Assembly: GCA_012862575.1 (NCBI GenBank)
Contig: BLSF01000034.1
Coordinates: 379,712-443,711, forward strand
Length of the DNA: 64,000 nucleotides
Source: Parietichytrium sp. I65-24A
Lineage: Eukaryota; Sar; Bigyra; Thraustochytrida; Thraustochytriidae
Direction: 5' to 3'
A program made the translations under genes and the position numbers. Positions 1 through 30,880 of this stretch are shown piece after piece. Within the stretch, counting starts at the first letter, position 1. Every line of letters starts with the position of its first letter. A model generated the notes under the pieces. It saw nothing but the letters and a program-made list of their open reading frames with translations. It was not told the DNA's origin and searched no databases.

Positions 1-1428
1 TGTTGAAAACCAAAGCAAGTCTACGGTTTTCGTAACTAGACAGTTCCTTCTGCTTTGGCTTCGTTGCACTAGGCCACCTTCCTGAATGAGAACTAAAAAA
101 GAGCGAGAAATCCACGCTCGAAGTTCGTCTGCCGCCATCGCGCCATGTTTCTAACAAATAAATTAGAAACCGTTCATAACGAACGATAAAATATGCATAG
201 ACTTTACCCTGGCAATCGAAACGCACCATGCGTTCCGCCCTTACAAAAGAGGAGATGTACGCGCTCTGCGATGTCCAACCCATACCGCACGACCGAGAGC
301 GAGGACCGACCCCTCAAGTCTCGCCGCACTGAGGACGTCCCTGATAATCGTAGCACATATTCAAGTGCAAACGCAAATGCAAATGCAAATGCAAACACAG
401 GCGCTGTTAGCCGAGGAGATGACTTCACGAACGACAATAATGACACGAACACAAGCGCTGTAGAGTCCGATGGCCGGGCAGAGAGTTGCGAGACGCAAGT
501 AAGTGCGGCTAACGCGAGAGCTAGTGTGGACGTGGGGGATCGCAGCGAGGCAGCGCCGCTCGAGGGTCGCTCGAAGGCGGTGTTTGAGGACTTTGTGCAG
601 CAAGACCCGTTCGAAGAAGAGCGGCGATTTCGCGGCGTTTCATGGNCGGAGAGAGAGAAGTGAAAGAAGGTACCATACTGACTGACTGACTCTGTTGCAG
701 AGAAATCGTTTCCCACATTTTGATTGAACATTGAACGAAAGATGAGCCCTGGTTTCTGTTAGTTTGATTTGAAAAGGCTTTTTTCGTTGTAAATTTGAAT
801 CGTTGCTTTTGTTTCTTTGTTTGTTTCTTCTCTGTTGATCGGTTCGCACGTGGAGCGGCGTGAAATGTGATCGCGTGCGAAGGCGGCGTGAAGAAGCCGA
901 TGGTGGAGAACAGTATGAGGTTGGTTGGAGACCGTGGAGCTGATGGAAAGTAGGTGGTGTTTGCGAATGGCTGCATCATCTTTCGACTCGTGTGCGGCGT
1001 TGAAGGAGAGGAAGGTTGAATGAAGGTCGCGAAGTGATGAAAACCGATCGATGCCATGGGTTGAGGACTTCCTGAAATGGGGCGAGCCAGTTTTTTACTT
1101 TAAAAAGACCTTGACGAAACGAGCACGTCAACGAAGCCTACACTTAGTATAGTTTGGCTCCTTGCTCCATTGCAGACTGATCTTCACGAAGCAAAGGAAA
1201 CGTTGCTCGCCTCAAATCTGTTCTGAAAAAGTAATGCAGAGGTTGATTTCTGGAGATTTTTTTTGGGTTTCGAGTTTCGGGCTGATGTTGTTACGAACGT
1301 GAGAATGAGAAAACTTCAAAGGCATCAAATCAAGTCATCATCGCTCAAGCGCCCAATCCTTCAAAATTTTCAGATTTCAGATTTCAGAATGTCATAATTC
1401 AGAATTCGTTGACGTTTTGATGTGAATG
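1..1428. repeat. Direct repeat unit 1: 5' flank and 5' half of the AP2 gene
   Basis: This is the first of three head-to-tail copies of one segment: about 190 bp of upstream sequence, then the 5' part of the AP2-domain gene. The copy stops at a single N (position 646), directly after the codons for the F-R-G-V-S-W start of the AP2 domain. About 780 bp of intergenic sequence follows, leading into unit 2. The single N marks an assembly gap, so the unit's true length is unknown. Confidence 0.85.
193..646 (+). pseudogene. Partial copy 1 of AP2-domain gene (cut by assembly gap)
   Basis: The reading frame starts with the same M-H-R-L-Y-P-G-N as the complete copy at 3084-3944. Its protein agrees with that copy throughout, including five Ala-Asn dipeptides. 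The frame ends at the N at 646, just as the AP2 domain begins; what follows the N is unrelated intergenic sequence. It is therefore either an incompletely assembled intact gene or a truncated duplicate. The shared break point with copy 2, exactly at an N, makes an assembly gap the simpler explanation. Confidence 0.6.
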
Positions 1429-1619
1429 TTGGAAACCAAAAGCAAGTCTACGGTATTCGTGACTAGACAGTTCCTTCTGCTTAGGCTTCGTTGCACTAGG
1501 CCACCTTCCTGAATGAGAACTAAAAAAGAGCGAGAAATCCACGCTCGAAGTTCGTGTGCCGCCATCGCGCCATGTTTCTAACAAATAAATTAGAAACCGT
1601 TCATAACGAACGATAAAAT
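664..1619. other. Intergenic spacer of the AP2 repeat array
   Basis: No supported gene. This sequence is near-identical to 2128-3083. It contains a run of TTCAGA-type hexamers around 1373-1405 and the short AT-rich stretch just before the AP2 start codon. It carries the presumed promoter of AP2 copy 2. Confidence 0.6.
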
Positions 1620-2892
1620 ATGCATAGACTTTACCCTGGCAATCGAAACGCGCCATGCGTTCCGCCCTTACAAAAGAGGAGATGTACGCGCTCTGCGATG
1701 TCCAACCCATACCGCACGACCGAGAGCGAGGACCGGCCCCTCAAGTCGCGCCGCACTGAGGACGTCCCTGATAATCGTAGCACATATTCAAGTGCAAATG
1801 CAAATGCAAACACAGGCGCTGTTAGCCGAGGAGATGACTTCACGAACGACAATAATGACACGAACACAAGCGCTGTAGAGTCCGATGGCCGGGCAGAGAG
1901 TTGCGAGACGCAAGTAAGTGCGGCTAACGCGAGAGCTAGTGTGGACGTGGGGGATCACAGCGAGGCAGCGCCGCTCGAGGGTCGCTCGAAGGCGGTGTTT
2001 GAGGACTTTGTGCAGCAAGACCCGTTCGAAGAAGGGCGGCGATTTCGCGGCGTTTCATGGNCTGAAGCATGTTGCTATCGAAAGCATAGTGACTGTTAGC
2101 TGGGGAGAAACGGAGAGAGAGAAGTGAAAGAAGGTACCATACTGACTGACTGACTCTGTTGCAGAGAAATCGTTTCCCACATTTTGATTGAACATTGAAC
2201 GAAAGATGAGCCCTGGTTTCTGTTAGTTTGATTTGAAAAGGCTTTTTTCGTTGTAAATTTGAATCGTTGCTTTTGTTTCTTTGTTTGTTTCTTCTCTGTT
2301 GATCGGTTCGCACGTGGAGCGGCGTGAAATGTGATCGCGTGCGAAGGCGGCGTGAAGAAGCCGATGGTGGAGAACAGTATGAGGTTGGTTGGAGACCGTG
2401 GAGCTGATGGAAAGTAGGTGGTGTTTGCGAATGGCTGCATCATCTTTCGACTCGTGTGCGGCGTTGAAGGAGAGGAAGGTTGAATGAAGGTCGCGAAGTG
2501 ATGAAAACCGATCGATGCCATGGGTTGAGGACTTCCTGAAATGGGGCGAGCCAGTTTTTTACTTTAAAAAGACCTTGACGAAACGAGCACGTCAACGAAG
2601 CCTACACTTAGTATAGTTTGGCTCCTTGCTCCATTGCAGACTGATCTTCACGAAGCAAAGGAAACGTTGCTCGCCTCAAATCTGTTCTGAAAAAGTAATG
2701 CAGAGGTTGATTTCTGGAGATTTTTTTTGGGTTTCGAGTTTCGGGCTGATGTTGTTACGAACGTGAGAATGAGAAAACTTCAAAGGCATCAAATCAAGTC
2801 ATCATCGCTCAAGCGCCCAATCCTTCAAAATTTTCAGATTTCAGATTTCAGAATGTCATAATTCAGAATTCGTTGACGTTTTGATGTGAATG
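1429..2892. repeat. Direct repeat unit 2 of the AP2 array
   Basis: Second copy, about 1,464 bp start to start with unit 3 and 1,427 bp with unit 1. It again contains one N (2070) at the same base of the AP2 gene. After the N it has about 50 bp (around 2071-2120) that is missing after the N in unit 1. Single-base differences from units 1 and 3 show it is not simply the same read placed twice. Confidence 0.85.
1620..2070 (+). pseudogene. Partial copy 2 of AP2-domain gene (cut by assembly gap)
   Basis: Same frame as the complete gene, ending at the N at 2070 inside the first residues of the AP2 domain. It differs from copies 1 and 3 by having three rather than five Ala-Asn dipeptides, and by Arg-to-His and Glu-to-Gly changes shortly before the AP2 domain. 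These differences support a genuine second allele or paralog. Whether it is intact cannot be seen because the 3' half lies in the gap. Confidence 0.6.
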
Positions 2893-3083
2893 TTGGAAAC
2901 CAAAAGCAAGTCTACGGTATTCGTGACTAGACAGTTCCTTCTGCTTAGGCTTCGTTGCACTAGGCCACCTTCCTGAATGAGAACTAAAAAAGAGCGAGAA
3001 ATCCACGCTCGAAGTTCGTCTGCCGCCATCGCGCCATGTTTCTAACAAATAAATTAGAAACCGTTCATAACGAACGATAAAAT

Positions 3084-3944
3084 ATGCATAGACTTTACCC
3101 TGGCAATCGAAACGCACCATGCGTTCCGCCCTTACAAAAGAGGAGATGTACGCGCTCTGCGATGTCCAACCCATACCGCACGACCGAGAGCGAGGACCGA
3201 CCCCTCAAGTCTCGCCGCACTGAGGACGTCCCTGATAATCGTAGCACATATTCAAGTGCAAACGCAAATGCAAATGCAAATGCAAACACAGGCGCTGTTA
3301 GCCGAGGAGATGACTTCACGAACGACAATAATGACACGAACACAAGCGCTGTAGAGTCCGATGGCCGGGCAGAGAGTTGCGAGACGCAAGTAAGTGCGGC
3401 TAACGCGAGAGCTAGTGTGGACGTGGGGGATCGCAGCGAGGCAGCGCCGCTCGAGGGTCGCTCGAAGGCGGTGTTTGAGGACTTTGTGCAGCAAGACCCG
3501 TTCGAAGAAGAGCGGCGATTTCGCGGCGTTTCATGGCACAAGAGAGACCGGCGATGGGTCGCTAGGCTGTGGGTTAAAGACCGCGTGAGGTACCTTGGTA
3601 GCTTTGAGTCTAAAGTGTACGCGGCGTTGGTTGTGGACGAAGAGGCTATCGCAAGCGCAGGTGCCAGCGCCCACAGGCTTAACTTTCCGGATGGTAGAGA
3701 ACGAAAACGGCTACGCGAAGAGCTCGGGCCGAATGCGGACAAGGTAGTGCAGAAACGGAAGGCTGGCGAGAAGAGGATGATGGACTCGGTGAAAGCGCTA
3801 GCGGCGAAATTGGCAGCCGATGGCCAGGATCCGTCGCGAGCGGCGCAGATGTTGGGGGTCAGTCTGCCTGAAGGCGTCTTGCTGGGCCCGCGATTGGTCC
3901 AAAGCGAGAAAATGACGTTGGAGAGGGCCGATGATGCGGCGTGA
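3084..3944 (+). CDS. AP2-domain protein, complete copy of the array
   Basis: 286 residues, apparently intronless. Residues about 146-201 form a single AP2/ERF-type DNA-binding domain: F-R-G-V-S-W opening, W-V-A-R-L-W strand, Y-L-G-S-F turn, an Ala-rich helix, and L-N-F at the end. By family knowledge such a domain binds DNA, so a nuclear regulatory role is inferred. The N-terminal 145 residues are hydrophilic and low in complexity, with five Ala-Asn dipeptides (residues about 57-66) encoded by a GCAAAT hexanucleotide repeat. The C-terminal 80 residues are charged and unrecognised. I used the ATG at 3084 (A at -3); the ATG at 3162 (M-S-N-P-Y) is a possible alternative start. Two 5' copies lie upstream in the same orientation. 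AP2 domains also occur in mobile-element endonucleases, but no endonuclease motif is present here. Confidence 0.8.
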   Translation: MHRLYPGNRNAPCVPPLQKRRCTRSAMSNPYRTTESEDRPLKSRRTEDVPDNRSTYSSANANANANANTGAVSRGDDFTNDNNDTNTSAVESDGRAESCETQVSAANARASVDVGDRSEAAPLEGRSKAVFEDFVQQDPFEEERRFRGVSWHKRDRRWVARLWVKDRVRYLGSFESKVYAALVVDEEAIASAGASAHRLNFPDGRERKRLREELGPNADKVVQKRKAGEKRMMDSVKALAAKLAADGQDPSRAAQMLGVSLPEGVLLGPRLVQSEKMTLERADDAA

Positions 3945-16798: not shown

Positions 16799-19700
16799 TT
16801 AAAGCTCGAGCGGTGTGTTTTTCTTTATTGCGCTTCTGATGGCTAAATTTTGTTCTCCGCCAAAGTTGGTCAGAAGGAATCTAAACCAATCACAAATGAA
16901 AACAAGCGCAGGCAAGGTCAGCAACATAACTACAAGAGAAAGGAACGGGCCGTGAACATTTTCACGACATGACTGCCAAGGTCACACGTACTCGAATTTT
17001 GTCAACGTAGTGTTCTTCTCCAAACCGCGAACGAATGCGGATCCCCCTTCAACGCCAATTTCGTTTGAAGCAATGCTATTCGAGAGTCGGTGATAAAAAT
17101 TGTCAGCCATGCGGAAACGAGGAGAATGAGAACGAGTTCTTCATATATTTCAAGGTGCAAAAGTCTCACGTACTCCAAGAAAGTCAGCGCAGCGTTCTTC
17201 TCCAAAACGTGGCCAAATGCCACTCCTCCTTTGGCACCTATCGTATTATCACTTAACCTGAATTCAGAAAAGACATGGGACTGTCAGGTACAAATCAAAA
17301 GTAAGGGAGAAGGGGTGTTTTACACTTACCAGAGAGAGGTCAGCGTCGTGTTCGTTTCCAAAGCGCGACTGATCGCCATTGCACCTTTGGGACCTATCCG
17401 ATTCGTTGCAAGACTATATTTCAGTACGAAAAGACACGAAATCGTCAGCCACAAAGAACGAGCAAGTTTGGCAAAGAATTAGACTCTTTCGCCAACTCAT
17501 TGGAAAAGTTGCACATACTTCAGCTCAGTCAGCACAGTGTTTTTCTCCAGCCCGCGACCGATTGCTGATGCTCCTTTGTCGCCAACCTTATTTGTCCACA
17601 TGCTTATCCAAGAGAACAGAGAACCGTCAGACAGCCACTTATAGAGAGGAGGAAAGCAATGGTTCCACGCCTTCCTCCGGGCCAGGATCAGAGTCACACT
17701 TACTAGAGACGTTTCAGGGTAGTGTTCTTCGATAACCCGCGACCGATCGCTACTGCTCCTTTGTCTCCAATTCCATTGTCCGAAAGACTGTTCACAACAA
17801 GCCAAATCCCGTCAACTAAAGAAAGACGTGAGAAACGCGAGTCCAATGTCTGAGGTCAACATACTTGATTTCAGTCAGCGCGGGGTGTTGCTCCAATGCG
17901 CGACCAATCGCGGATGCTCCTGTGTTGCCAATCCGATTCGTACAAAACCTAGTCCCAAGAGCAAGATGAGTGCGTCAGTCACATCATCAGCGAACATATT
18001 CCTTCTTCGAATTAGCTCGCAAACTCCAAACCAAGTGCAAGCCATAACGTACTCAAATTTAGCCAGCGCAGTGTTCTTTTCCAACGCACTACCGATCGCT
18101 GATGCTCCTAACGCGCCAATCTCGCTCCGCCCAACACTGTTTCGCAGCAAAAGCACAAAATCGTTAGCCACAAACAACACCACGAAAAGAGCGGTTCTTT
18201 CAAGGTTTCAGTACTGAGTGTTATCAGCAGTAGCTCTTGTTTTCCAACATCACACGTACGAGAGACAAGTTAGCGAACTGTTCTTCTCCAAACATCGAGC
18301 AATCGCTGCTGCTGGTGATGAACCTGTGGCTTCTTGCCAAGGGACGAGCTGCTGAAGTTTCGTAGAAGCTTTGCCTTTTTCTTTGCTTTCAGAAAGAATG
18401 CCCCGAAGACTGTGAAAGAGAGCAACAATTTGTCAGCAACAACCAAGCACGCATGACGTGACACCGTGTCAAATTGTGGGATACTGCATCCCTTCTCGAT
18501 AGCGTCAAATGGAAGGACACGTACTCGAGACTTGCAAGCGCGTTGTTCTTTTTCTTTTCCAAAGCGCAAAATATTGCTGACGCCCCTATGCAGCCAACAA
18601 TTCCCTCGTGGAGACTAGTATAAATTGGCAACAAACAAACCACGACGAGTTTAGTTCTTCTCAACGCTCTATGGGCCAGTGACAATGATTACTTCACATA
18701 CTCGAGAAACGTCAGCGCAGTGTTCTTCTCTAGCCCAAATCCGATCGCCGATGCTCCTTCATCGCCAATATGATTACCTGAAAGACTATTTGGAAACCGA
18801 CCAAAACGAATGTCAGCCACATAAAACAACTGAAAAGGTCTAGTTCACAGTCCGCCCTTGCACAAAAGCAGAGCCAAAGTCAAACACGTACTCAAGAAAA
18901 GTCAGCGTCGTGTTCTTTTGCAATGCGCGACCGATTGCTGCAACGTCTTTATCGCCAAGTTTGCAACGGTTCAGTCTGTCACAGATTTGAGTCAGTCACA
19001 GTCGAACAGGACGAAGCCACAATTCAAAATAGCACGTACTCAAGAGAAGTCAGACCGCAATTCTTTTCCAACATGCGCCCGATCGTTGAAGCTCCTAGGG
19101 CGCCAATCCAGTTAGATTTTAGACTGTTTCGGAAAGCAGAAATTCGTCAGATAAATTGACCTCTTCCGCGAGATCGTTCTTAAAGCTACGCTTACCTGAG
19201 ACGTGAAAGTGTAGTGTTGATTTCAAGCGCGGGTTCAATTGCCAATGCTCCTTCGCCGGAAACCCCAGCCCCCAAAAGACTACCATTTTTTTAGATGCAG
19301 CGATCTGTCAACATTACAGTACGAGTAGAAGCCTGAAAAAACCAAAGAAACACGTACTCGAGACTTGTCAGCGCCGTGTTCTTTTCCACGGCACGAAATA
19401 TTGCTGACGTTCCTTCGCTATCAATGCCGTTGCAGACGAGACTAGTTTCAGTCCCAAAAGAAGAACATGTCAGAGGTTTAGTTGACACCTCTATGCTTCA
19501 CAGCCAAGTGCCACCAAAGTCACACATACTTTAGTGTAGTCAGCGTAGCGTTCTTCTCCAAAGCAAGGCCGATCGTCGAAGCTCCTCGAGCGCCGACCAC
19601 ATTCATTGAAAGACTGCGAAACCAATCCGTCAGGCACACATATAGACAAGAGAAAACACCGGTTTTGAATTGTTTGTTTTCGCGAATCCAAAGCCACAAT

Positions 19701-20678
19701 CATACGTACTCCAACGATGTTAGCGCAGTGTTCTTCTCCAACGCGCGGCCGATCGCTGACCCTCCTTCACCGCCAATTTCATTCCAGGCAAGACTGTGAG
19801 ATTGTAATCGTAAGTAAACAGTACCAATTTGAAGAAAGAGATGGTTCTGAATTGGAAACATACTCCAGAACAGTCAGCACAGTATTTCTTTCCAGCAAAC
19901 GACCGATCGCAAGTGCTACTTCATCGTTAATTGTATTTGCTCCAAGACTGTTATTAGCAGGGGAAAGTCGTCAGCCGCACATTACGCAAAATCAAAAATC
20001 ACAAATGGCCGCCGATCTCAAAGTCGTACGTACTCCATATAAGTCAATGCAGCGTGCTTCTCCAGTGCATGACAAATATCTATAGCTCCTGCTGGGCCAA
20101 TTCTACTTCCCCGAAGACTATTTCAAGAGATCAACAGTCAGCCACGAAAAGCATGTGTACATTGGGTTTTTTACTGGGACTGGTTGTCATGTCAAAATAA
20201 CACGTACGAGAGGCATGTCACTGAAGTACCCGCCTTGAGGGACTCAGCAAGCATCGATACGGCTCCCTCGCCAACGTTGGCTAAAGTAAAACTGCGAAGA
20301 CGAGGGTCAATAGCGTCAGATGCATCAAGTTGCAATATATCAGCAAGAGGTGCCAAACATAAGCACATAATCACGTATCCAACCCATTTCCAAACTCACA
20401 ATATGCTCAAAGATCGCTTCTGGCGCAAATGAGGAGCGATCTTGCTAATTCCAATCAGACTCAACCCGCGATGAAACCTACCCATGAAAACAACAATCTC
20501 AATCTCGTCACTACCAACTGCCATTCAATGCCCCGCATACAAACACCCACAACAATACTCACCACACGGCATTTTCTCCTTCTTCGAGCGCCCTCAATCC
20601 TTCGTCCACATCTTCAACTTTCCAATAATTCACTGTCGTTACGCCGTGATTCACGCCCTCATACTTTCCCGTCGCCAT
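16799..20678 (-). CDS. Leucine-rich-repeat protein with one repeat per exon (22 exons)
   Basis: Spliced model of 1,944 nt, 647 residues. Exons (minus strand): 20678-20563, 20477-20400, 20291-20208, 20117-20034, 19947-19864, 19793-19710, 19613-19530, 19441-19358, 19279-19196, 19123-19040, 18975-18892, 18785-18702, 18614-18525, 18409-18260, 18136-18053, 17948-17865, 17787-17704, 17602-17519, 17413-17330, 17257-17174, 17075-16992, 16880-16799 (stop TAA). Seventeen exons are exactly 84 nt and all 21 introns are phase 2. Each encodes one 28-residue ribonuclease-inhibitor/NLRC3-type repeat, with consensus L-x-x-N-x-I-G-x-x-G-A-x-A-I-x-x-A-L-E-K-N-x-x-L-T-x-L. The first exon gives M-A-T-G-K-Y-E; no signal peptide, NACHT, kinase or GTPase domain is seen, so the protein is essentially all LRR solenoid and probably cytosolic. 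Partner unknown. No stop arises at any junction, which strongly supports the model. Confidence 0.88.
18260..18409 (-). other. Enlarged LRR exon with 22-residue insertion
   Basis: This exon of the LRR gene is 150 nt rather than 84. The extra 66 nt encode a Lys/Ser/Gln-rich segment between the first strand and the conserved A-A-A-I-A-R-x-L-E-K-N helix, and the usual N-x-I-G-x-x-G core is lost. Phase is kept (66 is divisible by three). The upstream neighbour exon (18525-18614) carries a smaller, 6-nt expansion (extra Lys codons). Confidence 0.75.
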
Positions 20679-26446: not shown

Positions 26447-29215
26447 GAATTCGCGTTGGGGCAATATTGGGAGGTCGCACTTTTGTCATCCGAGCTTAGC
26501 GCTGTAGAAGGCTTCCTTTTGATGCTCGGGTTTTGGGCCAAGAAAAAGTTCGGATGCAGAGCTCATTGTAGTGACACGTGAGAGAAAATAATTAGAGCAA
26601 CGAAACTCGTCTCACGTTTGCGCTGGAACCTTCTCTCGCGTCTTTGTTGAGCACTCTCTGCTTGGTGCAAATGAGAACCCATGATGGACGCAGCGCCATC
26701 TAGTAGCAAGCGCAAATGCATGTCTCGGTCTCGAATTAATATTTCAACTCACAGCCAGCAAGCCTTCTTCGTGCTCCTTCGTCAATCACAGAATTATTTT
26801 GGCTGAAATGGGTCGTTGGCTTTTGCGCTTCAAAGACTTCACAAAGTTCAAAAATTCATCGTCGAGAATGTCGAGTAACTACGCTCTGGTTCTACTGGTA
26901 CAGGGGTGCACACGTTGTTCTTTTGTTCTTCGTAGGAATTATGTATGCGCAATAAGCTAGCTTAACATCTATTAAAGCACTAATCGATTCCGGGACGCCA
27001 TATAGTGGGACGCATGAAGCCTATCGTTTCATCTAGTTGGCTCTTATCTTGACAGGGAGTGACGTGTTCTCGGCGGAAAAGTCACTCGTATGGCTCTGCA
27101 TAAGCTGAACCATAGTATAGAAAGAGTGCTTCTTCGTTCGCTACCGTATGGCGCAGGAGTCGATACAGGAAACCGTAATAGTACCGGGACGATATTGAAG
27201 CCTGATTACCCTGAAGCTGGGAGTTGGGAGGGTGGCGGAGGTCCTAACCAGTGTGTAGATATTCCTATTCAACTCCCTTGCCTTTCCTCTTTCCTCTCCC
27301 CCAGGTTGCCCTCCACCTTCTTTCTTTCTTTCTCTTTCTTCCAGCTACTCGTGTGCATAGCACCACCATAACCGCTCTTAAGAAAGGCATAAACTCAACA
27401 GTAGGAACCCTTCTTTCCGAATTCTGCTCTTTTCCCTAATGCGAGTAATAGGACGAATAGGAGAAGTTGAAACAACCATTTGTTTCGTTTGCTGTGGTGC
27501 GTGCCTGAGTGTCATTGGATGTCATTGGGCGTTGAGAGCTCACAGTTGAGTCAGACTAGGTTATTGCAACGATTGTTGTTCAATGAAAACAATAATGAAG
27601 TTGGTATGATGGTGGATTACAAGGTACCGTGGAGTGCTTGTTAGTACTGAAAAGCTGCGGCGGAAGAGCTCGGAGAGCGGTGCTCCCTCTTTTTGGTGCA
27701 TGTAGATCTTGATTAATTATTTTTTAAATTTTAACGAAACCAAACTCGAAATCAAACGTCTGGAACTGGTTCGTAATTTGGACTGGGAAGAACAACATCA
27801 TAGATCATATCATTGTGTGTTGTAGAATTAGACTTTCATCGGATTTTGAACTTGTTCCCCTCAAGGAGCTCCGGTCAATCACTTCGCAGTCATAGTCACA
27901 AGTTCCTGACCAGCCCTGACAACGATGTTTTTTTGACTTATTTACCAAATTACTACATTGCAGCAGTATGAATTGAAAACGGAAGAAACAGCCTGGAGCT
28001 CAGGTATGAGCCATGTACCATCATCATGTATCATCATGTATCACCATGTACTCAGATCAAAATCAAAATCAAAATCAAAATCAAAATCAAAATCAAAATC
28101 AAAATCAAAATCAAAATCAAAATCAAAATCAAAATCAAAATCAAAATCAAAATCAAAATCAAAATCAAAATCAAAATCAAAATCAAAATCAAAATCGTCG
28201 ATGCTCACAGTGAGTAACTAAAACTGCAGCCCAGAGCCCGTCGGAAATTTCTCGAAGGAGCTTGGGCGGAAATTTCTTCTTCCTCGACGTGCGGGCAACT
28301 TCGTCAGAATTCCAGAATTCAGCTTTTCCTGTGAAGAGAGGGATCATCATCTTCATCTTCATCGATCGATCAACGATCTCCTTCTCGAAAGATGCAACTA
28401 GCAAGCAACCAGCAACCAGCGACAAGCCCTCGAATCGACTCGCGCAGCCAACAACACTCATTTTCAAGAACAATAATTAATAATTAAAATCAGTCTCAAA
28501 ATCAATCAAACATGCAAACATGCAAAGCAAATCTTTGGCGGACAGTGAAAGAAAAATTGCCAAACAGTCTCCCAAGCCTACTCCTTTCCATAAATGAGCC
28601 TAGTACTGTACCCAAGGTCCCAATCCTCTCCACCGGGTGATGGCGCGTGTGGCGCTTCTTACCGTTTACGGTGTCTATCACTACCACATCGCAGAACATC
28701 CCTCTCTCCAAGAGCCGTCTCTTCCAATCTCTCCCACTAAGCGTCCCTATCGACATACATAATCCCCCAGGGTGCTGCTAGTCATGCAATAGCATTTACG
28801 CTGGTAGTCTTGCCCGCCCCTCACAGGAGAGACACAGAGACCATCTCACGTTTGTCTGGAGGTTTCCGGTCGAGTCCTACCACAACCGGTAGCAAGCTTC
28901 CTACCACCGTCGCGGGCGCGTACACACTCGAGCTCACTGCGGGGACCGCGTCCCACCGTCCCACTGTCCCACTGTCCCACTTCTGTCCGTCCCACAGCCC
29001 CACAGCCCCACAGCCCCACAGCTCCACAGTGCGCGAGCGTGTTGGAGGAAAGGGCAGAGAGGGCAGTGCGGTGGAAGGAAAGAAAGACAGAAAGAAAGTA
29101 GGAAAGAAGAAGAAAATTTACCGAGCGTAGAGTCCCCGGCGAGTACCCCCTGAGTGCGTCGGCAAATAGGGGTCGGACTGGGCAAGTAAACCAATCGTGC
29201 CAAGGGACGGCCGAG
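26447..29215. other. 2.8-kb intergenic region with hexanucleotide satellite
   Basis: No supported gene. Holds the (TCAAAA)n array at 28056-28196, preceded by a short ATCATCATGT repeat (about 28020-28050), and CCCACAG repeats (about 28985-29025). Long open frames across the satellite are artefacts of the 6-bp unit. Confidence 0.5.
28056..28196. repeat. (TCAAAA)n hexanucleotide microsatellite, about 23 copies
   Basis: Essentially perfect tandem array of a 6-bp unit over about 140 bp, the longest simple repeat in the window. All three forward frames stay open (Lys-Ser, Gln-Asn or Ile-Lys dipeptides). No conserved protein flanks it. Confidence 0.95.
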
Positions 29216-30766: not shown

Positions 30767-30880
30767 TGGAGACGTGGAGAATCGAACTCCAGACAATCTG
30801 AAACTATGTTTCAGTCTAGGTGAACTAACACCTCAACTTGCCATTGCAAATCAGACATGCTACCACTGCATCACGCCCCC
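30767..30880 (-). tRNA. tRNA-Ala (anticodon UGC) with 42-nt intron
   Basis: Reading the minus strand from 30880, every arm folds. The acceptor stem GGGGGCG/CGTCTCC has seven pairs including the G3:U70 wobble that identifies tRNA-Ala. The D stem is ATGC/GCAT with loop AGTGGTA. The anticodon stem is TCTGA/TCAGA with loop TTTGCA. The T arm is TGGAG-TTCGATT-CTCCA, and the discriminator base is A73. The anticodon stem closes only if a 42-nt intron (30844-30803) is removed after position 37, the canonical place for eukaryotic nuclear tRNA introns. Downstream lies a T-rich pol III terminator. The mature tRNA is 72 nt before CCA addition. The match of anticodon TGC with G3:U70 is mutually confirming. 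Confidence 0.9.
30803..30844 (-). other. Intron of tRNA-Ala(UGC)
   Basis: 42 nt inserted one base 3' of the anticodon, between positions 37 and 38. It contains sequence able to pair internally (for example GAGGTGTTAGTTCACCT). Boundaries are set by closure of the five-pair anticodon stem, so they may be off by a base. Confidence 0.8.

Follow-up and report, generated by a model that had tools for sequence, protein, structure and literature searches.

The window analysed here is a 64,000-nucleotide (nt) stretch of contig BLSF01000034.1 of the thraustochytrid Parietichytrium sp. I65-24A, and its subject is a minus-strand gene composed of leucine-rich repeats (LRRs) that belongs to a large family in the same genome. 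Gene junctions were predicted by scanning for acceptor-exon-donor triples and splicing in silico. The spliced frame opens with an ATG at 20678, closes with a TAA that ends at 16799 and comprises 648 codons with the stop, for a protein of 647 amino acids. From 5' to 3', the 22 predicted exons measure 116, 78, ten times 84, 90, 150, seven times 84 and 82 nt; the 21 introns (64–123 nt) are all GT-AG and all in phase 2. The features are as follows.

16799..20678, minus strand: LRR-only gene, 22 predicted exons, 647 amino acids (spliced frame; Pfam LRR_6, E 6.5e-70)
20563..20678, minus: exon 1, 116 nt, N-terminal cap, a divergent form of the family cap (..FW.VDSLxEGLxAxDREVAVW)
20400..20477, minus: exon 2, 78 nt, cap repeat
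20208..20291, minus: exon 3, 84 nt, first LRR, divergent
20034..20117, minus: exon 4, 84 nt, LRR
19864..19947, minus: exon 5, 84 nt, LRR
19710..19793, minus: exon 6, 84 nt, LRR, seed for the genome searches
19530..19613, minus: exon 7, 84 nt, LRR
19358..19441, minus: exon 8, 84 nt, LRR
19196..19279, minus: exon 9, 84 nt, LRR
19040..19123, minus: exon 10, 84 nt, LRR
18892..18975, minus: exon 11, 84 nt, LRR
18702..18785, minus: exon 12, 84 nt, LRR
18525..18614, minus: exon 13, 90 nt, LRR with a 2-residue insertion
18260..18409, minus: exon 14, 150 nt, LRR with a 22-residue insertion
18053..18136, minus: exon 15, 84 nt, LRR
17865..17948, minus: exon 16, 84 nt, LRR
17704..17787, minus: exon 17, 84 nt, LRR
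17519..17602, minus: exon 18, 84 nt, LRR
17330..17413, minus: exon 19, 84 nt, LRR
17174..17257, minus: exon 20, 84 nt, LRR
16992..17075, minus: exon 21, 84 nt, LRR
16799..16880, minus: exon 22, 82 nt, truncated last LRR and stop

A preliminary description of this DNA had proposed that 17 of the 22 exons are exactly 84 nt long with one LRR each, and that all introns are in phase 2; in-silico splicing bore out both statements, with junctions as predicted. Its further statement that exons can be lost, gained or swapped without breaking the frame also holds, every internal exon being symmetrical (2-2). When the exons were aligned to each other, 16 of those with 84 nt fitted a single repeat consensus (LxxNxIGxxGASAIGRALEKNTxLTxLE), and their concave positions differed from exon to exon, as do those of the other family members. 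Scanning the window for AG-[84 nt]-GT/GC segments with an LRR-like phase-2 translation recovered 16 of the 17 exons, and found none on the other strand or in the reversed sequence; its scoring matrix was derived from the very exons scanned, so that this result is partly circular.

Symmetry of all internal exons would also suit exon skipping: each gene would yield many isoforms and diversity would arise in the RNA, a proposal already made for the ROCO genes of brown algae. In Ectocarpus, transcripts with alternative LRR exons have been reported (PMC11378527). An origin by tandem duplication explains the symmetry too, however, and we regard diversification by skipping as improbable.

In a Pfam scan, the window protein matched LRR_6 in 12 stretches. 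Only LRR families exceeded the cut-off, with no GTPase, NB-ARC, NACHT or ROC/COR domain among the matches, in line with the earlier suggestion that no GTPase or NB-ARC is attached. Its tandem 28-residue LxxLxLxxNxI..G repeats place it with the ribonuclease-inhibitor-like LRR proteins (LRR_6). Matches in the PDB include ribonuclease inhibitors, NLRP chains and 5irl (which we take to be NOD2), and further matches were to Dynein regulatory complex subunit 5, LRRC34, radial spoke protein 15 and RanGAP chains. The repeat class is thus shared with ribonuclease inhibitor and with the LRR domains of vertebrate NLRs, whose LRR exons are often about 84 bp; unlike vertebrate NLRs, the window protein is LRR-only, with no NACHT domain in the same gene, and is part of a large expanded family. 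The genome contains 15 NACHT matches, all in long open frames, and these sit away from the listed LRR arrays; a link between NACHT proteins and those listed arrays was rejected on that account.

Family searches were carried out in one assembly of 42.5 Mb, in which N gaps occur within arrays and some contigs end inside arrays. With one window exon as the query, the DNA search returned 144 matches (query included) and the protein search at least 150 (best 150 of 740 candidates scored). A 27-mer from the repeat core (≤ 3 mismatches) occurred 480 times genome-wide, and the reversed pattern 0 times. Because this 27-mer captures only 329 of the 447 core hits described below, and 2 of the 16 in the window gene, 480 is a lower bound for the repeat exons as assembled. 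Detailed comparisons were made on 43 loci (the window and 42 array loci fetched as 9, 20 and 13 stretches); about a dozen further array places from the exon searches lie outside this sample, and arrays running off contigs are missing from it.

A splice-blind scan of the 43 loci gave 447 core hits, of which 412 had AG and GT exactly bordering 84 nt, 35 lacked one border signal and none lacked both. A second scan used nucleotides only (27-mer, ≤ 5 mismatches, no frame or splice input) and gave 405 hits clear of N and of sequence ends; 27 open codons were found in 400 of them, and 375 also had AG and GT/GC exactly 84 nt apart. This is a non-circular test of the 84-nt exon architecture, and many further 84-nt phase-2 LRR exons exist in the genome. 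When read through, the introns of the family contain an in-frame stop in 321 of 330 cases. Their median length is 102 nt and the mode 103 nt, and an array unit of about 187 nt is made up of an 84-nt phase-2 exon, encoding one 28-residue repeat, and an intron of about 103 nt.

The typical gene of this family begins with a short conserved cap (exons 1 and 2), followed by a tandem array of such units. By loose-pattern searches, a cap exon was located ahead of the array in 29 of the 43 loci, the window included; 28 of those loci also contain a candidate for the second exon, the cap repeat. An LRR-free genome search with the cap consensus returned 77 matches, 63 of them at E ≤ 0.001. In the family layout, a cap exon 1 of 71–116 nt with a phase-2 end precedes a cap repeat exon; the window gene keeps this layout, yet its cap is too divergent to be among the 77. 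No hydrophobic leader, signal peptide or membrane anchor is apparent in the cap exons, as judged by eye. Among family members, whole-gene splicing and the domain scan were applied to the window gene only.

Arrays are frequent near contig ends, with 17 of 40 array places within 10 kb of an end against 5.0 expected (three C88 arrays counted as one). A subtelomeric location was considered and rejected. Nine loci at or near contig ends hold only 0–2 scattered telomere-like hexamers, several contigs stop inside arrays, and 10 of the 77 cap matches lie on the minus strand within 500 nt of the contig start, with their arrays facing off the contig (C41, C54, C110, C22, C53, C58, C4, C19, C121 and C125). 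The excess is read as assembly breakage and not as chromosomal position.

LRR repeats of the same class also occur elsewhere in the genome in long intronless frames of 384–1429 codons (C30:445974, C59:271047, C4:475376, C99, C1 and C48), in contrast to the exon-per-repeat family. A copia-like polyprotein frame (labelled by eye) occupies L044:1-1580, with the 3' end of an 18S gene immediately downstream, and a 63-nt piece of the tail of that frame (98%) lies at the edge of an LRR array locus (L042:1-63).

For the 401 exons with both flanks, the nearest relative was found in the same locus in 31% (3.2% by chance) and in another locus in 69%. Identical exon pairs with no intervening N are neighbours in four loci (L002, L003, L018 and L030); in L033 they make up a two-unit block, and in L039 they are separated by 4 kb. 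Codons 2–5 are identical in 28 inter-locus pairs; if codons combined freely, 3.1 such pairs would be expected within and between loci together. Of the 28, about half are near-identical elsewhere in the exon as well (14, or 15 with ties, at ≤ 4 differences in 57; random median 10).

Flanking introns were also compared between loci. Among 148 inter-locus pairs with downstream introns at ≥ 0.8 of the maximum score, upstream introns reached 0.8 in 3, were intermediate in 118 and fell below 0.4 in 27; among 139 inter-locus pairs chosen by their upstream introns, downstream introns were high in 3, intermediate in 82 and below 0.4 in 54. We read this as ancestry that appears to switch across single exons, a pattern for which only inter-locus pairs count because tandem duplication of units within a locus produces it too. 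Family exons seem, on these comparisons, to have been both duplicated within loci and shared between them.

In the LxxLxLxxNxL strand of an LRR, codons 26, 28, 2, 3 and 5 are the exposed concave positions. Over 419 exons, entropy was 3.4–3.9 bits at codons 2, 3 and 5, 3.0 at codon 26 and 2.6 at codon 8 (mostly Asp or Ala), and all other scored codons were below 1.7 bits; codon 28, which is split by the intron and outside the entropy scoring, shows more moderate variation. The phase-2 intron divides the binding strand, with codons 26 and 28 in one exon and codons 2, 3 and 5 in the next. Selected LRR sites of brown algae likewise lie at concave positions, according to the accessible text of PMC11378527.

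In order to compare rates, 91 independent exon pairs were matched by both flanking introns rather than by the exon, and the proportions of nonsynonymous (pN) and synonymous (pS) differences were set against an intron divergence of 0.086. At codons 2, 3, 5 and 26, pN was 0.411 and pS 0.395; at the other 23 codons, pN was 0.056 and pS 0.133 (pN/pS 0.42, 0.35–0.49). Concave pN exceeded intron divergence 4.8-fold (bootstrap 95% 4.3–5.3). The excess was also present after removal of 21 same-locus pairs with an intervening N (70 pairs, concave 0.509 vs introns 0.105), in the 44 inter-locus pairs (0.582 vs 0.122) and in pairs selected on their downstream intron only. The silent base of Asn4 differed in 0 of 23 pairs in which codons 3 and 5 agree and in 17 of 52 in which either differs; when the comparison of Asn4 with Asn21 was stratified by divergence, p was 0.009 for older pairs and 0.11 for younger ones. 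Codons 2–5 may thus far be seen as possible targets of short-tract block replacement.

The high similarity of the units of about 187 nt, together with several identical exon pairs, could suggest satellite-like arrays that unequal crossing over has homogenised and that serve no selected function. This reading was rejected as very improbable, since it is contradicted by open frames over 27 codons in 400 of 405 core hits and by the framework constraint (pN/pS 0.42), and change is concentrated at the concave codons.

We favour, with moderate confidence, the reading that the window gene would be an old, now stable member of a large LRR-only family, and that the family would constitute a germline-diversified recognition repertoire in a probably non-photosynthetic stramenopile. 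What the assembled sequence itself establishes are the architecture, the family size, unit duplication, inter-locus exon sharing, framework constraint and the concave excess. Unequal crossing over and gene conversion within homologous introns would create new exon orders, and each exchange would re-pair half-strands because the intron cuts the binding strand. Selection would then retain new concave surfaces in proteins that would recognise variable ligands, most likely those of viruses, bacteria or competitors, or non-self tags. An intracellular location would fit cap exons in which no hydrophobic leader is seen by eye, and a partner protein would have to signal, since no effector domain was seen in the window protein.

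Several points weigh against this reading, beginning with the window gene itself. Its 16 scanned exons have a mean identity to the nearest exon of 73.8%, the lowest of the 43 loci (the others range from 83 to 100%), and for 0 of the 16 does the nearest relative lie within the same gene. It is the most divergent family member sampled, with no recent exon exchange. Because a single window exon served as the similarity probe for finding loci, consensus-like arrays were favoured, and other old members were probably missed. The preliminary description had called the gene a modular, repertoire-type locus; that idea stands for the genome-wide family, in which exons are duplicated and shared between loci, but the findings do not support the window gene as a live part of such a system.

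Compared with their best matches, the introns of the window gene reach a mean of only 0.22–0.25 of the maximum score, and a two-exon query of the genome found no close second copy among the best 150 of 718 candidates scored. In BLAST alignments, its exon-intron register still matches that of paralogous arrays (63.5–67% over 565–1041 nt, among the matches listed). Since its identity is the lowest, its nearest exons lie outside the gene, its introns have diverged and no close copy was found, the gene appears to be old and stable, with exons that would have stayed intact after the introns diverged.

The same divergence, the isolation of the gene in the genome search and the intactness of all 22 predicted exons could also describe an ordinary conserved LRR protein (ribonuclease-inhibitor-like, axonemal or Ran-regulator-like), in which the exon-per-repeat structure would be a relic of origin and the genome repertoire a side branch. 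The matches to Dynein regulatory complex subunit 5, LRRC34, radial spoke protein 15 and RanGAP chains agree with such a role. On the other hand, the window gene keeps the family cap layout and intron register, and its concave positions vary among exons as they do in the rest of the family. We consider an ordinary LRR protein possible, though doubtful.

Other reservations about a diversified repertoire concern exchange and selection. An N lies between the members of 10 of the 19 same-locus identical pairs; these pairs, and recent block duplications that contain a single N, may have arisen in the assembly. Selecting pairs on one similar flank lowers the similarity of the other flank, and all pair counts apart from the 91 matched pairs are non-independent. 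Since concave pS is as high as concave pN in those 91 pairs, some of the change at the concave codons may come, beside selection, from path averaging, short-tract conversion or local mutation. Among the 43 most recent pairs (40 same-locus), concave codons were not more changed than the rest when scaled by heterozygosity (0.17–0.26 vs 0.08–0.36); the raw values were about 0.09–0.19 per site against 0.02–0.03 in the adjoining introns. The role of the family could, moreover, be structural or regulatory.

Recognition could also be directed at other cells of the organism's own kind, the family then serving self/non-self or mating recognition and not microbial defence. In fungal NLR repeat domains, such as those of the Podospora nwd family, the repeats are strongly conserved, evolve in concert both inside a gene and from gene to gene, and carry a few positively selected positions each (four in the WD repeats); incompatibility genes are among these NLRs (PMC4986451). 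The present family resembles them in conserved repeats, exchange within and between genes and few variable positions per repeat; theirs are WD, ANK or TPR repeats, with no LRR, and are joined to NACHT or NB-ARC. The window protein contains only LRR families, and no signal peptide or membrane anchor is visible in the caps by eye, and we regard this alternative as unlikely.

The germline repertoire that we favour can be set beside other LRR systems. Lamprey variable lymphocyte receptors (VLRs) are an LRR solenoid repertoire that varies at concave positions and is somatically assembled, tethered or secreted. The likeness lies in solenoids differing at concave positions; somatic assembly is a feature of the VLRs, and the present observations, made on one assembly, showed nothing somatic. 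The window gene and its family belong to the exon-array type, with many exons of one length and phase-2 introns (17 of 22 exons; 375 of 405 family hits). They differ from the ciliate form of that type in exon length (84 nt, not 90 bp) and in lineage, the 18S 3' end, located by a pattern search, carrying CGCACC, presumably a stramenopile signature. The V9 wording of the same 18S end points to labyrinthulomycetes.

In Tetrahymena, the LRR genes are described as having 90-bp exons with an extreme phase-2 bias, recent expansion of units and exon sharing by ectopic recombination (PMC6564038, accessible text). That text gives both nearly 50,000 and about 72,000 LRR exons for ten ciliate species, and its authors suggested a single evolution of the pattern (PMC6564038). 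As far as that source is accessible, the two systems share very many LRR exons of one exact length, phase 2, unit expansion and inter-gene sharing; they differ in exon length, in host (stramenopile vs ciliate) and in scale (some hundreds vs tens of thousands of exons). A word search of the accessible text returned no mention of positive or diversifying selection or of concave or hypervariable sites (PMC6564038).

The preliminary description had pointed to Ectocarpus, a comparison that is apt in kind but not as homology. As far as the accessible text of PMC11378527 goes, brown algal ROCO genes have one LRR per phase-2 exon, exon shuffling and positive selection at concave sites, all of which seem to recur here in a host that is likewise a stramenopile. 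Their exons, however, measure 72 bp, encode 23 residues and belong mainly to LRR-ROC-COR genes; in Saccharina japonica another 15 sequences contain exons of this kind, and most of those are LRR-only (PMC11378527). The selected brown algal sites (14, 16, 18 and 19) are all encoded by a single exon; in the present family the variable strand is shared between two exons, with the intron in between. The ROC-COR tandem and 72-bp exons are absent from the window protein and its gene; no genome search for ROC, COR or NB-ARC was made. Literature searches in one open library yielded, among the matches listed, no description of 84-nt LRR exon arrays.

A bolder extension, which we hold to be rather unlikely, is that several hundred LRR half-strand cassettes would form an interchangeable stock in the germline, recombining within and between loci at such a rate that receptor sets would differ among clones of a single species. 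This would be a fast clonal anticipatory repertoire in a unicellular stramenopile, and the intron in the binding strand would be its re-pairing device.

An exon-by-exon genome search, with a positive Synechococcus control, found no chlorophyll a/b-binding protein, which does not prove absence; as no light-harvesting protein was found, the host is probably non-photosynthetic. An exon-by-exon search with the omega-3 PfaA synthase model gave no genome match over the cut-off (best 143.8 vs 1010.1 bits), which again does not prove absence. At C66:8562-22499, seven matches to the PfaA model lie in one uninterrupted frame of 5583 residues that resembles an intronless modular polyketide/fatty acid synthase.

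Elsewhere in the window, positions 1-3536 contain two 1.4-kb copies and one 0.65-kb partial copy, 96–99% identical, of a unit with a weak AP2-like open frame (below the Pfam cut-off). These copies carry a single N at 646 and at 2061 and are probably an assembly join artefact and not a true repeat. A perfect (ATCAAA) hexamer array of 23.5 copies lies at 28056-28196. An Rfam tRNA match over 114 nt at 30767-30880 (minus strand) is probably an intron-containing tRNA; ARAGORN reports no tRNA in the window.

The family is an apparent third case, after ciliates and brown algae, in which fixed-length phase-2 exons with one LRR each have become an expanding gene system. Its exon length and repeat class suggest independence from the other two; if independent, the three would mark a repeatable route to a recognition repertoire. 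The introns beside every exon provide a built-in neutral yardstick, by which exchange and selection become directly measurable. If strains differ in their exon sets, the organism would offer a unicellular model for receptor diversity without somatic immune cells.

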